Shown piece after piece: positions 9,723 to 17,751 of a stretch of DNA of 44,639 nt. This DNA comes from Methylococcaceae bacterium. Its GTDB lineage: Bacteria; Pseudomonadota; Gammaproteobacteria; Methylococcales; Methylomonadaceae. The stretch is from the NCBI GenBank assembly GCA_900299045.1, contig OMIH01000100.1:1-44639 (forward strand). Direction: 5' to 3'. The notes beneath the pieces are model-generated. The model was given only the letters and a program-made list of their open reading frames with translations, searched no databases and was not told the origin of the DNA. The first letter of the stretch is position 1. Each line of letters begins with the position of its first letter. A program made the translations under genes and the position numbers.

Positions 9723-10577
9723 ATGGAAAAATTTATGCAAGAACACGATTGTCTAAGACGATTTTTATTTGAAGAACACGGAATTCGAGGCGTGTGGGTA
9801 CAACTTACCGATAGTTGGCAAGCGGCAAAACAACATCAAAAACAACCCGATATTGCGCTCAATACATTAGGTCAAGCACTGGCGGCAACGGCAATGCTGT
9901 CAACTACCGTCAAATTTGAAGGTGCAATGGTACTGCAAGCACAAAGCGATGGCGCGATTTCAACGTTCGTTGCGCAAACGAGCAATCAAGGTAAAATTCG
10001 CGGCATTGTTAAAACACGCGCGGCTATTCACAGTCACTCACTAAAAGAACTGTTCGGGCAAGGTCAGCTCGTTATCAGTATTGATACGGGCAATGGCAGA
10101 CCTTATCAAGGCATTGTACCGCTGCAAGGTGATCATTTAGCGCAAGCCTTGCAAGCTTATTTTGAACAATCTGAGCAGCTGAAAACGCGCTTGTGGCTAT
10201 TTTCAAATGACACTCACGTTGCCGGTCTTCTCCTTCAAGCACTTCCTTCGCATGAAAATACCACCGATGCGTGGGATACGCTCGAAATGTTTGTGAATAC
10301 AATGACGGAAAAGGAAATTTTCAGTTTAGATTGCCATGAATTATTGCATCGTTTATTTCATGAAGAAAATGTGCGTTTATTTCACTCTCAGCCACTCGCA
10401 TTTGAGTGTTCCTGTTCGCGCGAGCGTATTGAAAAAACGTTACGCTCAATGGGCGAGGAAGAGCTATATTCTATTCTCGATGAACAAGGAAAAATTGAAG
10501 TCACCTGTGAATTTTGCAGTGAAATGCAACTATTTAACCGTCAAGATGTCGATACATTATTATTAGCTGTTCATTAA
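9723..10577 (+). CDS. hslO: Redox-regulated chaperone Hsp33
   Basis: C-terminal zinc motif CSCSRERIEKTLRSMGEEEL...VTCEFC (CxC...CxxC). Confidence 0.94.
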   Translation: MEKFMQEHDCLRRFLFEEHGIRGVWVQLTDSWQAAKQHQKQPDIALNTLGQALAATAMLSTTVKFEGAMVLQAQSDGAISTFVAQTSNQGKIRGIVKTRAAIHSHSLKELFGQGQLVISIDTGNGRPYQGIVPLQGDHLAQALQAYFEQSEQLKTRLWLFSNDTHVAGLLLQALPSHENTTDAWDTLEMFVNTMTEKEIFSLDCHELLHRLFHEENVRLFHSQPLAFECSCSRERIEKTLRSMGEEELYSILDEQGKIEVTCEFCSEMQLFNRQDVDTLLLAVH

Positions 10578-10644: not shown

Positions 10645-11028
10645 ATGTCACAACAGGTACATCATTGCCCCGCATTAAGCGAAACCGACATTGAACATCG
10701 ACTCAACGCAGAGCTACCGCATTGGGTTTATGAAAAAGGATGGATTCGCCGAAAAATAAAAACGAGCGGATGGAAATCGACGTTGATGGTGGTCAATACC
10801 ATTGGACACTTAGCTGAAAAAGCATGGCATCATCCTGATTTAACGGTGTCGTACGCGTTTGTCATTGTAAAACTCGTCACACATGACGCCAAAGGCGTGA
10901 CAGAGAAAGATTTTGCATTAGCGAAAAAAATTGAAGAAGTGGTTATGTGGGATGCGGCGCACGATTCGCAAGGACTCTTTGAAGGGACTCCCGATGACCC
11001 TCGTTTTAAATACATTAAAAAAGATTAG
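10645..11028 (+). CDS. Pterin-4a-carbinolamine dehydratase-like protein (C1-cluster associated)
   Basis: AEKAWHHPDLTVSYAFVIVKLVTHDAKGVTEKDFALAKKIE matches the HHPxxxxxYxxVxxxLxTHxxxGxTxxDxxLAxxI signature; AGGAG upstream. Confidence 0.85.
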   Translation: MSQQVHHCPALSETDIEHRLNAELPHWVYEKGWIRRKIKTSGWKSTLMVVNTIGHLAEKAWHHPDLTVSYAFVIVKLVTHDAKGVTEKDFALAKKIEEVVMWDAAHDSQGLFEGTPDDPRFKYIKKD

Positions 11029-11036
11029 GCGGTTTC

Positions 11037-12308
11037 ATGACTGAAATAAGAGAAGTTCCCAGTCCATTTTGTGGTATTGGTACAGATGATTTAACAATAG
11101 ACGTAAATGGTCAACAGGTAAAAGTATTGTCAAATGGCTGTGCGGTGAATACTCTCGCATTTGAACATCCTATTACAGACACAAAACCTCGTATTGATGG
11201 CAAAGAAGTCAGTTTAGATGAGGCAGTCGCGCGGGCGGCTACTTTATTGAAACATACTCATTTTCCTGTCATTGCCGGCTGTGCAACCGATGTTAACGGT
11301 ATGCGTGGTCTACTTGCTTTAGCGGATCGCACGGGCGCTGTTGTGGATAATGCTAATTTTAATAATGCGCGTAAAAATATTTTGGCACTGCAAGATACTG
11401 GCTGGATGAATACCACGCTTGCCGAAGTTAAAAATCGCTGCGACGTTTTAGTTATTGTTGGTACTGATTTAGAAGGTTTCGCACCGCGTTTTTTTGAAAA
11501 ATATCTCTGGAATGAGGCGATGTTTTTAGACAATACCAGCGAGCGAGATATTATCTATTTGGGAACGAAACCCTCTGGCACAGCGTCAACCTCGCCATCG
11601 GGAAAAACAGCACAGGTGTTTGAATGCGAAACTCAAAACTTACCTGACGTTGTTGCCGTTTTACGCGCTCTAGTCAAAGGACAGCAAATTCAAGCTACCT
11701 CTGTTGCGGGAATTTTAGTTAGCGATTTAGCTGCTATCGCGCAAAAACTTAAAGACGCAAAGTATGGTGTTATTACATGGGCGGCGGGTGCACTGAATTA
11801 TTCACACGCAGAATTGACCATTCAAACGCTTTGCGAAATGATTAAAAATTTAAACGAAACAACACGTTGCTCAGGTTTTCCATTAGGTGGCAAAGAAGGT
11901 GATCAAACAGCTAATCAAGTGTGTGGTTGGACATCGGGTTACGCTGCACGCGTAAGTTTTGCAAAAGGTTATCCCGTGTATGACCCATTTTTACTCGATA
12001 CACACACATTACTTGAAAATGGTGAAGCTGATGCGTTAGTTTGGGTGCAAGCGTTTAACGCCAGCGCTACCCCGCCTAAAACTAATCTACCGACAATTGT
12101 TGTTGCACGTTCGGGTATGATTTTTGAAAAAGAGCCTGATGTGTTTATCCCTGTTGGGACACCTGGTATTGACCATGCCGGACACGCTTATCGACTTGAT
12201 AATGTCGTAGCGATTCGATTGAAAAAATGTCGTGATTCAAATTTACCCAGCACAGCAACCGTTTTAAATGCGATTGAGAAAAATTTACGCGAGGAAGTAG
12301 TATGTTAA
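11037..12308 (+). CDS. fhcB: Formyltransferase/hydrolase complex subunit FhcB (formylmethanofuran dehydrogenase subunit B homologue)
   Basis: SPFCGIGTDDLTIDVNGQQVKVLSNGCA N-terminus; GCATDVNGMRGLLALADRTGAVVDN; FPLGGKEGDQTANQVCGWTSGY; position upstream of and overlapping fhcA. Confidence 0.9.
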   Translation: MTEIREVPSPFCGIGTDDLTIDVNGQQVKVLSNGCAVNTLAFEHPITDTKPRIDGKEVSLDEAVARAATLLKHTHFPVIAGCATDVNGMRGLLALADRTGAVVDNANFNNARKNILALQDTGWMNTTLAEVKNRCDVLVIVGTDLEGFAPRFFEKYLWNEAMFLDNTSERDIIYLGTKPSGTASTSPSGKTAQVFECETQNLPDVVAVLRALVKGQQIQATSVAGILVSDLAAIAQKLKDAKYGVITWAAGALNYSHAELTIQTLCEMIKNLNETTRCSGFPLGGKEGDQTANQVCGWTSGYAARVSFAKGYPVYDPFLLDTHTLLENGEADALVWVQAFNASATPPKTNLPTIVVARSGMIFEKEPDVFIPVGTPGIDHAGHAYRLDNVVAIRLKKCRDSNLPSTATVLNAIEKNLREEVVC

Positions 12309-13966
12309 TTAAATTAACTGGCGGTACTGTTTATGATCCAGCGAGTGGTGTTGACGGTAAAAAACAAGACATTTACATTCAAAATGGCAAAATTATCAAC
12401 AAGCCCAGCGGTGAGTTTCAAATTGATAAAGAATACGATTTAAAAGGCAAAGTGGTCATGTCCGGTGCCATTGATATGCACACACACATCGGTGGCGGAA
12501 AAGGAAATATTGCACGCACACTCCTTCCCGAAGATCATCGACTTGACCCGGTTGCTGGCACTCATCTTTGCCGCTCAGGGTGTGGTCATGTTGCGCCAAG
12601 TACATTTATTACAGGATACCGCTACGCTGAAATGGGTTATACCGCAGGATTTGAACCCGCAGTACTGCCAATTAACGCGCGTCAAGCGCACATGGAAATG
12701 GGTGACATTCCCATTCTCGATAAAGGTGGCTATGTCATGCTTGGCAGTGACGATTATTTATTGCGTATGCTCACCGCCAAAAAAGATCAAAAAGCTATTA
12801 ATGATTATGTTGCATGGACAATGAACGCCGCAAAAGCCATTGGCGTTAAAGTTGTTAATCCCGGCGGTATTAATGCGTTTAAATTTAATCAACGCAAACT
12901 CGATTTAGACGAGCAAAATAGCCATTATGGCGTCACGCCACGCGATATCTTGCAGGTACTCGCCACAGCGGTAAAAGAAATTGGCGTGTCGCATCCTCTG
13001 CACGTTCACGGTTGTAATTTAGGCGTTCCGGGCAATATTGAAACCACCCTCGATACAATTCAAGGGATTGGTGGATTGCCTATGCACTTAACACATATTC
13101 AATTTCACAGCTACGGCACTGAAGGGGATTTCAAATTTTCATCTGGTGCTGCGCGAATTGCGGAAGCGGTCAATAAACATAAAAATATTACCATTGATGT
13201 TGGGCAAATTTTATTTGGTCAAACCGTGACCGCATCAGGCGATAATATGCGCCAACACGCTAATAACAAATTTGCAAGCCCTGCAAAATGGGTCACGATG
13301 GACATTGAATGTGATGCTGGCTGTGGTGTTGTGCCATTCAAATACAAAGACCAAAATTTTGTTAATGCGCTGCAATGGGCGATTGGACTGGAAACCTTTT
13401 TGCTAGTGGATGATCCATGGCGAATTTTCTTAACCACCGATCATCCAAACGGTGCGCCATTTACCAGTTACCCACATTTGATTCGATTGCTGATGGATAG
13501 AACATTTAGAAATGACGTTCTCTCAACAATTCATCCCGAAGCGCAGAAAATGACGACGCTTGCCTCAATTGAACGTGAATATACCTTACAAGAAATTGCC
13601 ATTATGACACGCGCGGGCGCGGCGAAATTAATTGGTCTTGAAAATCGTGGCGGATTGAGCGCGGGTAATTGGGCGGATATTACTGTCTACACGGATAACG
13701 CAGATCGCCAAAAAATGTTTGAAAAACCAGATTATGTATTCAAAGACGGTGAACTGGTGGTGGTTGATGGCAACGTTGTTCATACAAAATGGGGAACAAC
13801 CCATATTGTCAAACCGCACTTTGATGCTGGCGTTGAAAAAGACTTACGCGCCTATTTTGATAAATATCTCACGATGAAACTCGATAACTTTAAAATTAGC
13901 GATGATGAATTTACTGAAGATGGTCGAGGTCATTTAACTACTCATCCACTTAACAACGTGGCATAA
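12302..13966 (+). CDS. fhcA: Formyltransferase/hydrolase complex subunit FhcA (formylmethanofuran dehydrogenase subunit A homologue, amidohydrolase fold)
   Basis: AIDMHTHIGGGKGNIARTLLPEDHR (HxH), NPGGINAFKFNQ, HVHGCNLGVPGNIETTLDTI, HLTHIQFHSYGTEGDFKFSSGAARIAEAVNKH, LTTDHPNGAPFTSYPHLIRLLMD. Overlaps fhcB by 7 nt. Confidence 0.95.
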   Translation: MLIKLTGGTVYDPASGVDGKKQDIYIQNGKIINKPSGEFQIDKEYDLKGKVVMSGAIDMHTHIGGGKGNIARTLLPEDHRLDPVAGTHLCRSGCGHVAPSTFITGYRYAEMGYTAGFEPAVLPINARQAHMEMGDIPILDKGGYVMLGSDDYLLRMLTAKKDQKAINDYVAWTMNAAKAIGVKVVNPGGINAFKFNQRKLDLDEQNSHYGVTPRDILQVLATAVKEIGVSHPLHVHGCNLGVPGNIETTLDTIQGIGGLPMHLTHIQFHSYGTEGDFKFSSGAARIAEAVNKHKNITIDVGQILFGQTVTASGDNMRQHANNKFASPAKWVTMDIECDAGCGVVPFKYKDQNFVNALQWAIGLETFLLVDDPWRIFLTTDHPNGAPFTSYPHLIRLLMDRTFRNDVLSTIHPEAQKMTTLASIEREYTLQEIAIMTRAGAAKLIGLENRGGLSAGNWADITVYTDNADRQKMFEKPDYVFKDGELVVVDGNVVHTKWGTTHIVKPHFDAGVEKDLRAYFDKYLTMKLDNFKISDDEFTEDGRGHLTTHPLNNVA

Positions 13967-13986
13967 CCGCTTTAATCTTCAAAAAG

Positions 13987-14020
13987 AGGCGCATCATTTG
14001 AATATGGTGCGCCTTTATTT
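13987..14020 (+). terminator. Probable Rho-independent terminator after fhcA
   Basis: aggcgcatcat-ttgaat-atggtgcgcct stem (one G.U) followed by ttatttg. Confidence 0.7.
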
Positions 14021-14079: not shown

Positions 14080-17000
14080 ATGAACAAAACCGATTTACTC
14101 AAACAACAACTCGCCGAGCGTATTCTCTTTCTTGACGGCGCCATGGGCACCATGATTCAAAGTTATAAACTCGATGAAAACGATTATCGTGGTGAACGTT
14201 TCTCAAACTGGGATGTCGATTTAAAAGGCAACAACGATTTACTGTCCCTCACGCAGCCTGATATTATCAAAGCCATTCATCGCGCCTATTTTGCCGCAGG
14301 TGCTGATATTGTTGAAACCAACACGTTCAATTCAACAACTATCGCGATGGCGGATTACCAAATGGAATCCCTTGCTTATGAAATGAATGTCGCATCAGCC
14401 AAAATTGCGCGTGAAGTGGCTGATGAATTTGAAACACAACAAAGACCGCGTTTTGTCGCAGGCGTTTTAGGGCCTACCAATCGCACCGCGTCAATGTCGC
14501 CTAATGTCAATGATCCGGGATTTCGTAATATTTTCTTTGATGATTTAGTGGTTGCCTATACTGAGGCAACACAAGGACTCATTGACGGTGGTGCGGATAT
14601 CATCTTAATCGAAACCGTTTTCGATACACTTAATGCAAAAGCGGCTATCTTTGCCGTGGAAAATGTATTTGAATCTATTGGCTACAGTTTGCCCGTTATG
14701 ATTTCAGGGACGATTACTGACGCTTCAGGTCGAACATTGTCAGGGCAAACAGTCGGTGCATTTTGGAATTCACTCAAACACGTTAAACCTATTTCATTTG
14801 GATTTAATTGTGCGTTAGGCGCTACCGAATTACGTCAATATATCGCCGAGCTTTCTAGCATCTGCGATACACACGTTTCAGCGCATCCCAACGCGGGACT
14901 TCCCAATGCGTTTGGTGAATATGACGAAACACCCGAGCAAATGGCGGCTGAAATTGCCGATTGGGCGAATAGTGGTTATTTGAACATTATTGGCGGCTGC
15001 TGTGGCACCTCCCCTGATACTATTAAAGCGATTGTTAGCGCAGTAGAAAAAATAGCGCCTCGGAAATTACCCAATATTGCAAAACACTGTGGACTTTCTG
15101 GTTTAGAGCCGCTCAATATTACCGCTGACAGTTTATTTGTGAACGTAGGTGAGCGTACCAATGTCACAGGCTCTGCTATTTTTAAACGGTTAATTATTAG
15201 TGGTGATTTCGATGCGGCACTTGATGTCGCCAAGCAGCAAGTTGAAAATGGGGCGCAAATTATTGATATTAACATGGATGAGGGAATGCTCGAATCCAAA
15301 GAGGCGATGGTTCGCTTTTTAATGTTGATTGCTTCTGAACCCGATATTGCAAAAGTTCCTATTATGCTTGATTCGTCAAAATGGGATATTTTGGAAGCAG
15401 GTCTTAAATGTATTCAAGGCAAAGGCATTGTTAATTCGATTTCAATTAAAGAAGGCGAAGCAAAATTCATTGAACAAGCCAAATTGGTTCGTCGCTATGG
15501 CGCTGCAGTCATTGTGATGGCGTTTGATGAAGTAGGACAGGCGGATACGCAAGAGCGCAAAATTGAAATTTGCCAACGCGCGTATAACATTTTAACGCAA
15601 CAAGTGGATTTTCCACCCGAAGATATTATTTTTGACCCGAATATTTTTGCTGTCGCCACTGGCATTGATGAGCATAATAATTACGGGGTCGATTTTATTG
15701 AAGCCACGCGTGAAATAAAACGGACTCTCCCCTATGCACTGATTTCTGGTGGTGTATCGAATGTATCGTTTTCATTTCGGGGGAATAATCCAGTGCGTGA
15801 AGCCATTCACGCGGTCTTTTTATATCATGCCATTAAAGCCGGTTTGTCGATGGGCATTGTCAACGCCGGTCAATTAGCGATTTATGAGGATATTCCTCAA
15901 GAGTTGCGTGATGCGGTTGAAAATGTCATCTTGAATCGTCACAGTGGTGATGGAACGGATATCTTGTTATCACTTGCTGAAAAATACCGTGGTGATGGTA
16001 GTGTCGACGTTAAAAAAGAAGATGCGCAGTGGCGACAACTTCCTGTTAATAAACGATTAGAACACGCCTTAGTTAAAGGTATTACCGATTTTATTGACGA
16101 AGATACGGAAGAAGCACGATTGCAAGCAGAACGCCCACTACACGTCATTGAAGGTGCGTTAATGGATGGCATGAACGTCGTTGGTGATTTATTTGGTGCG
16201 GGAAAAATGTTTTTGCCACAAGTCGTCAAATCGGCACGAGTTATGAAAAAAGCGGTAGCCTATCTCATGCCATTTATGGAAGCAGACAAAGCCGCAGGTG
16301 ATAGACAAACAAATGGTAAAATTTTGATGGCTACCGTTAAAGGTGATGTGCATGATATTGGCAAAAATATCGTTGCAGTCGTATTGCAGTGTAATAATTA
16401 CGATGTGATTGATTTAGGTGTGATGGTGCCTGCTGAAAAAATTCTGCAAACAGCTCGCATGGAAAAAGTCGATATTATTGGTCTTAGCGGCTTAATTACA
16501 CCGTCACTTGATGAAATGGTTCATGTTGCAAAAGAAATGCAGCGGCAAGGCTTTACGATACCACTGATGATTGGCGGTGCAACGACATCTCGCGCACATA
16601 CCGCTGTCAAAATCGAACCACATTACGAGGGCGCGGTTATCTATGTGACCGATGCGTCACGCGCTGTTGGCGTGGCGAGTAATTTATTAAGCGGTGAACT
16701 CCGTCATGACTATATTGAAAGTGTCCGCAACGAATACATCGAGGTGCGTGAGCGTCACAAAGGCAAAGAAGCAAAAACGCCACAACATTCGCTTGAAAAT
16801 GCGCGTCAAAATAAATTTGTTTGGGAAAATTACACGCCAGTGAAACCCACGTTTTTGGGCGAAAAAGTCATTGAAAACTTATCGTTGGCAACACTTGAAA
16901 AGTATATTGATTGGACGCCTTTTTTTCAAACGTGGGAAATGGCAGGTAGCTACCCTAAAATTTTATCCGATGCGATTGTGGGTGAAGAAGCACAAAAACT

Positions 17001-17751
17001 TTTCGATGATGCTCAAAGCATGTTACAAACCATTATCTCCGAAAATTGGCTACAAGCGCGTGCGGTGATTGGCTTTTTTCCTGCAAATAGCATTGAAGAT
17101 GATATTGTTTTGTACACAGATGAATCACGCCAAACCGTGCTGGAGATTTTGCCCCATTTGCGCCAACAAAACATCAAAGCACCGGGCAGACCTAATTATT
17201 GCCTAACAGACTTCATCGCTCCAAAAGAAAGCCAAATCTCCGATTATATTGGTGGATTTGCTGTCACCACGGGCATTGGCATCGAAGATAAACTAGCGAA
17301 ATTTGAGAAGGCGCATGACGACTATAGCGCTATTATGCTTAAAGCCCTTGCTGACAGACTTGCTGAAGCGGGCGCTGAGTATTTACATCAACAAGTGCGT
17401 AAAGAGTATTGGGGTTACGCAAGCGATGAGCATTTTGACAATAATGCGTTGATCAGCGAAAAATACCAAGGCATACGACCTGCACCCGGGTACCCAGCAT
17501 GTCCAGATCATACTGAAAAAGAAAAATTATTTAAGCTACTCAATGTCACAAAACATACCCGTATTTCGTTAACGGAAAATTTTGCTATGTACCCTGCATC
17601 GGCGGTTAGTGGCTGGTATTTATCTCATCCAAAAGCGCAATACTTTAACGTAGGAAAAATTGATCAAGCACAACTTGCTGATTATGCTACGCGTAAAAAA
17701 ATGGAAAAGTCGAGTGTTGCCCGTTGGTTAGCGGCGCATTTAACCGATTAG
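14080..17751 (+). CDS. metH: Cobalamin-dependent methionine synthase
   Basis: [29 protein letters not shown] (zinc Cys pair), [30 protein letters not shown] (cobalamin-binding DxHxxG), C-terminal activation domain [15 protein letters not shown]. Confidence 0.98.

Follow-up and report, generated by a model that had tools for sequence, protein, structure and literature searches.

The genes of a formyltransferase/hydrolase complex are split between two loci throughout a genus of Methylomonadaceae

Background

The closest described relatives of the system studied here are the formyltransferase/hydrolase complex (Fhc) FhcABCD of Methylorubrum extorquens and the formylmethanofuran dehydrogenase FwdABCD of methanogens. 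In the part of the literature drawn on here (PMC10100899, citing Hemmann et al. 2019), the scaffold subunit FhcB of Fhc is reported to lack the Mo/W ligand. For the methanotroph Methylomonas denitrificans, the gene order is listed as fhcCDAB (PMC5920175). Operon contiguity is a frequent criterion for the completeness of the Fhc pathway in fragmented methanotroph genomes. Here, we describe a 44,639-nucleotide stretch of DNA (hereafter the window) in which fhcB and fhcA stand without fhcD and fhcC, and compare it with related genomes.

Results

The window carries three intact open reading frames, pcd, fhcB and fhcA (Table 1), with an 8-nt gap between pcd and fhcB and a 7-nt overlap (ATGTTAA) between fhcB and fhcA. 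A sequence-only reading of the window had described this packing, with hslO upstream and a terminator followed by metH downstream; coordinates, gap and overlap were reproduced, the gene identities were far beyond chance, and the flanks were recovered as a profile match, an open reading frame and a stem-loop. Terminator-like hairpins, of which the one behind fhcA is an example, were not enriched in the whole region over shuffled sequence. The remaining scanned genes of the window were housekeeping genes (hem, clpB, uvrD, dnaJ, dapB, rpo/rps/rpl, secY, fabI, ackA and PBP1b), and neither fhcC nor fhcD was found in the open reading frame list or in the scan of the window genes, which agrees with the earlier description of the locus as set among housekeeping genes and lacking both on either side.

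Table 1. Coordinates of the fhc genes and flanking features (window positions unless the locus L003, on contig C71, is given)
Feature	Position	Strand	Description
hslO (Hsp33)	9723..10577	+	NF001033, 268 bits; upstream neighbor, outside the complex
pcd	10645..11028	+	pterin-4a-carbinolamine dehydratase-like, 127 aa; PF01329 (Pterin_4a), 94 bits
fhcB	11037..12308	+	TIGR03129 (formylmethanofuran dehydrogenase subunit B), 366 bits (cut-off 328); aligned to 5t5i_B
fhcA	12302..13966	+	amidohydrolase subunit, predicted formyl-methylofuran hydrolase; TIGR03121 (subunit A), 773 bits (cut-off 393)
intrinsic-terminator-like hairpin	13985..14016	+	13-pair stem, 6-nt loop, T-rich tail; ends the fhc block
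metH	14080..17751	+	open reading frame; downstream neighbor
fhcC	L003 9482-10294	-	TIGR03122, 272 bits
fhcD	L003 10291-11190	-	PRK02114, 470 bits

The best PDB match of FhcA was 6s6y_A (E 3e-128), with an end-to-end alignment in which the motifs HTH, GVK, HVH, LTH and TDHPNG, predicted to form a metal-dependent amidohydrolase site, were conserved. FhcB differed from FwdB (5t5i_B) in having SPFCGIGTDD for CPFCGTLCDD and NARKN for VCHGP, and has thereby lost the Mo/W-ligand cysteine and two of the four Fe-S cysteines. These substitutions suggest that FhcB carries neither Mo/W nor a complete 4Fe-4S site and that it is the known non-catalytic scaffold of Fhc, which is free of Mo/W (PMC10100899). 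The same metal-site residues of FwdB were altered, with small variation, in all aligned Methylomonadaceae FhcB proteins (at least 50% identity).

The window is one contig (C100) of an assembly (G000) of 2,097,563 bases in 182 contigs that is 97% complete. The source is a Methylomonadaceae methanotroph. The closest named relatives of its FhcB were uncultured lake metagenome-assembled genomes (MAGs), UBA10906 among them, and the genus is probably UBA10906, a name taken from the FhcB matches. The UBA10906 clade comprises methanotrophs whose occurrence in lake waters has been reported (PMC11192741). Elsewhere in the assembly, a single fhcD and a single fhcC lie together on contig C71 with a 4-nt overlap and smpB upstream; all four Fhc subunits are thus encoded, A and B in the window and C and D on C71. 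The genome-wide search proposed in the sequence-only reading also located mch on C71, about 4 kb from fhcDC, fae on C15, and three Mpt_N (mtdB/mtdA-type) matches on C136 and C79, so that the set for H4MPT-linked formaldehyde oxidation (fae, mtdB-type, mch and fhc) is present in the genome. These genes indicate that the genome has the H4MPT pathway and an unreduced Fhc complex: of the two options offered earlier, H4MPT-type C1 chemistry with a split locus stood, and a reduced complex fell with the finding of fhcC and fhcD. The two halves are not adjacent, yet in an assembly of 182 contigs they could lie within tens of kb of each other.

The mch gene of C71 (L003 15177-17222, minus strand) encodes an in-frame fusion of 681 aa in which an ATP-grasp domain precedes methenyl-H4MPT cyclohydrolase, an arrangement also seen in G013:C77, G040:C33, G026:C18, G031:C69 and G039:C68. 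Among the remaining family members that were examined, the ATP-grasp gene and mch are usually separate, adjacent and in different frames. The ATP-grasp part weakly matched the tyramine-glutamate ligase MfnD and is a candidate methylofuran glutamate ligase of the MyfA/MyfB kind (PMC8141765).

The genus set comprised 18 genomes; all of them contained fhcD, and 17 contained fhcA. Enough sequence lay 3' of fhcA in 14 genomes, in none of which fhcA was followed by fhcD, and in all 17 testable genomes smpB was followed by fhcD; the split into fhcBA and fhcDC is fixed genus-wide. The layout is not peculiar to this organism: it proved clade-typical at the genus level, the outcome that the sequence-only reading had named as its own refutation, with similar splits in some other genera, and a one-genome oddity was ruled out by this census. 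The neighbors of the BA half vary between species of the genus: metH follows fhcA only in the closest relatives of the window (also L267, L268 and L287), and pcd precedes fhcB in about nine genomes, others having no pcd at this spot (in G040 it is located elsewhere) or only a remnant. In trees of A+B and of D+C, the genus formed one clade with full support in each; the two trees agreed on this clade only, and their deeper branches were weakly supported and discordant.

Two further rearrangements were seen. At L119 1-2888, and likewise in L274 and G186, pcd appears to be interrupted by about 2.6 kb with an E1-E2 ATPase-type gene, which leaves a C-terminal pcd remnant before fhcB. In one member of the genus, a small coiled-coil (CCDC90-like) open reading frame (L126 7212-7463) lies between fhcB and fhcA.

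Outside the genus, 36 Methylomonadaceae fhc regions, which represent most of the 29 genera sampled, were contiguous in the order B-A-D-C in 32 cases, split in three and cut by a contig end in one; among the named loci outside the genus, 51 of 67 were contiguous. Splits occurred in G008, G058 and G026 and in the named loci L131, L135, L144, L164, L190 and L191, and arose independently. In Methylomonas and Methyloprofundus loci, pcd heads fhcBADC. No published description of an fhcBA/fhcDC split was found in the literature searched.

The Pcd protein has the catalytic motif EKAWHHPDLTVSYAFVIVKLVTHDAKGVTEKD and a C-terminal tail of about 28 residues. It matches the COG2154/PhhB motif [EDKH]x3H[HN][PCS]x5-6[YWF]x9[HW]x8-15D, which reportedly comes from the work of Naponelli et al. 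in 2008 on pterin-4a-carbinolamine dehydratases. A pcd relative was found in 58 of 61 family genomes. A biopterin-dependent hydroxylase was found in none of the 61, the window's genome included, and a role of pcd in serving an aromatic amino acid hydroxylase was rejected on this ground. Twenty pcd copies outside fhc loci had no neighbor in common, which likewise spoke against a conserved partner other than fhc. In many members of the genus, pcd stays beside fhcBA despite the rearrangement that removed fhcDC.

Two related gene clusters were observed in other genomes. In a sister species, a second FhcA (FhcA2, 51% identical) is encoded in a zinc-starvation-type cluster (L290 1955-10529, G196:C76) together with Zur, ZigA, another COG0523 GTPase, a COG0523 fragment and a ZnuD-like receptor, and with a perfect Zur-box-like palindrome, TGTTATAATATAACA; broken copies occur in L291 (G013) and L292 (G206). 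FhcA2 retains the metal-site motifs and was not found in the window's genome; it would be a spare of FhcA for zinc limitation, and the parts of a survey of Zur-regulated paralogues drawn on here (PMC2770081) do not name FhcA. Several Methylococcales families carry the other cluster, with FwdB bearing the Mo/W-ligand motif VCHGP, FwdA, Ftr and FwdC (L066 8855-16043 in G033; L073, L074, L242, L243, L246-L248 and L250). Divergent to it lies a gene for a 734-736 aa fusion of molybdopterin-binding (FwdD-like), flavodoxin, FAD and NAD(P) domains, and the cluster sometimes directly adjoins fhcBA. It looks like an NAD(P)H-linked, apparently active formylmethanofuran dehydrogenase of aerobic methanotrophs, of which no published description was found in the literature searched.

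Discussion

We consider it very probable that the window encodes two of the four subunits of an ordinary bacterial Fhc complex, complete in the genome of this gammaproteobacterial methanotroph, the operon of which was split in the genus ancestor. In most other Methylomonadaceae the order fhcB-A-D-C is unbroken and often preceded by pcd, which suggests that an ancestral pcd-fhcB-fhcA-fhcD-fhcC operon came apart at the fhcA-fhcD junction. Since then, fhcBA would have come to lie in various neighborhoods, in some cases with pcd and in others without it, and the DC half would have been kept beside smpB. The simplest history is one break between A and D before the genus radiated and several other breaks elsewhere in the family; we infer the direction of rearrangement. 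By analogy with M. extorquens, FhcD would transfer the formyl group from H4MPT to methylofuran and FhcA would hydrolyze formyl-methylofuran to formate, with FhcB and FhcC structural and Mo/W presumably no longer bound by FhcB. Homology predicts that the complex assembles and is active, in which case proteins from two transcription units must still come together.

Other explanations of the window were weighed against this reading. If Fhc were reduced, FhcA and FhcB alone would oxidize formyl groups without FhcC and FhcD; the window taken by itself fits this idea, but with intact fhcC and fhcD elsewhere in the genome, and fhcD in every genus member searched for it, we give it practically no credence. 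Equally implausible is an artefact of assembly or binning: the MAG is fragmented, but the separation recurs in every genus genome that could be tested and, within contigs, housekeeping genes or a terminator directly follow fhcA. A gain of fhcBA by horizontal transfer, in place of fission of a native operon, is slightly less remote but still very unlikely. The flanking genes of fhcBA differ between species, indicating that the block has moved; however, both FhcA/FhcB and FhcD/FhcC group the genus as a single clade within the family with full support, so that the trees give no support to such a gain, the order and tight spacing of pcd-fhcB-fhcA match the intact operons of relatives, and there is normally one fhcBA copy per genome.

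The role of pcd is a separate matter. Its near universality, the absence of the hydroxylase and its retention beside fhcBA after the loss of fhcDC from the locus point to a possible step on H4MPT. That pcd is no bystander and acts in an undescribed step, for example by dehydrating 4a-hydroxy-H4MPT formed by oxidation, is a tentative proposal that we regard as rather unlikely. A Moco-related role, as proposed for COG2154 (PMC3223725), is an alternative. The retained link between pcd and fhcBA in genomes without a biopterin hydroxylase offers a testable lead on the function of carbinolamine dehydratase in methanotrophs.

In this genus, a locus with only fhcBA is to be read as a split operon and not as a missing or reduced complex. 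The window resembles M. extorquens FhcABCD (6s6y) in its FhcA, which aligns over 540 residues, in an FhcB without the Mo/W ligand and in the presence of FhcC and FhcD in the genome, but differs in that the fhc genes occupy two separate loci. Alignment of the M. extorquens FhcB chain starts only at residue 55 of the window FhcB, whereas full-length FwdB is matched from its residue 3, and the window FhcB keeps the N-terminal region with two of the four Fe-S cysteines. FwdA and FwdB of methanogen FwdABCD (5t5i) are homologous to FhcA and FhcB, but Fwd is CO2-reducing and the window system would be a formate-releasing hydrolase. With the (pcd-)fhcBADC loci of Methylomonas and Methyloprofundus, the window shares the order of the first three genes and a similar tight spacing, whereas fhcD and fhcC follow directly only in those loci. 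The window thus presents a known complex in a new, genus-typical layout.
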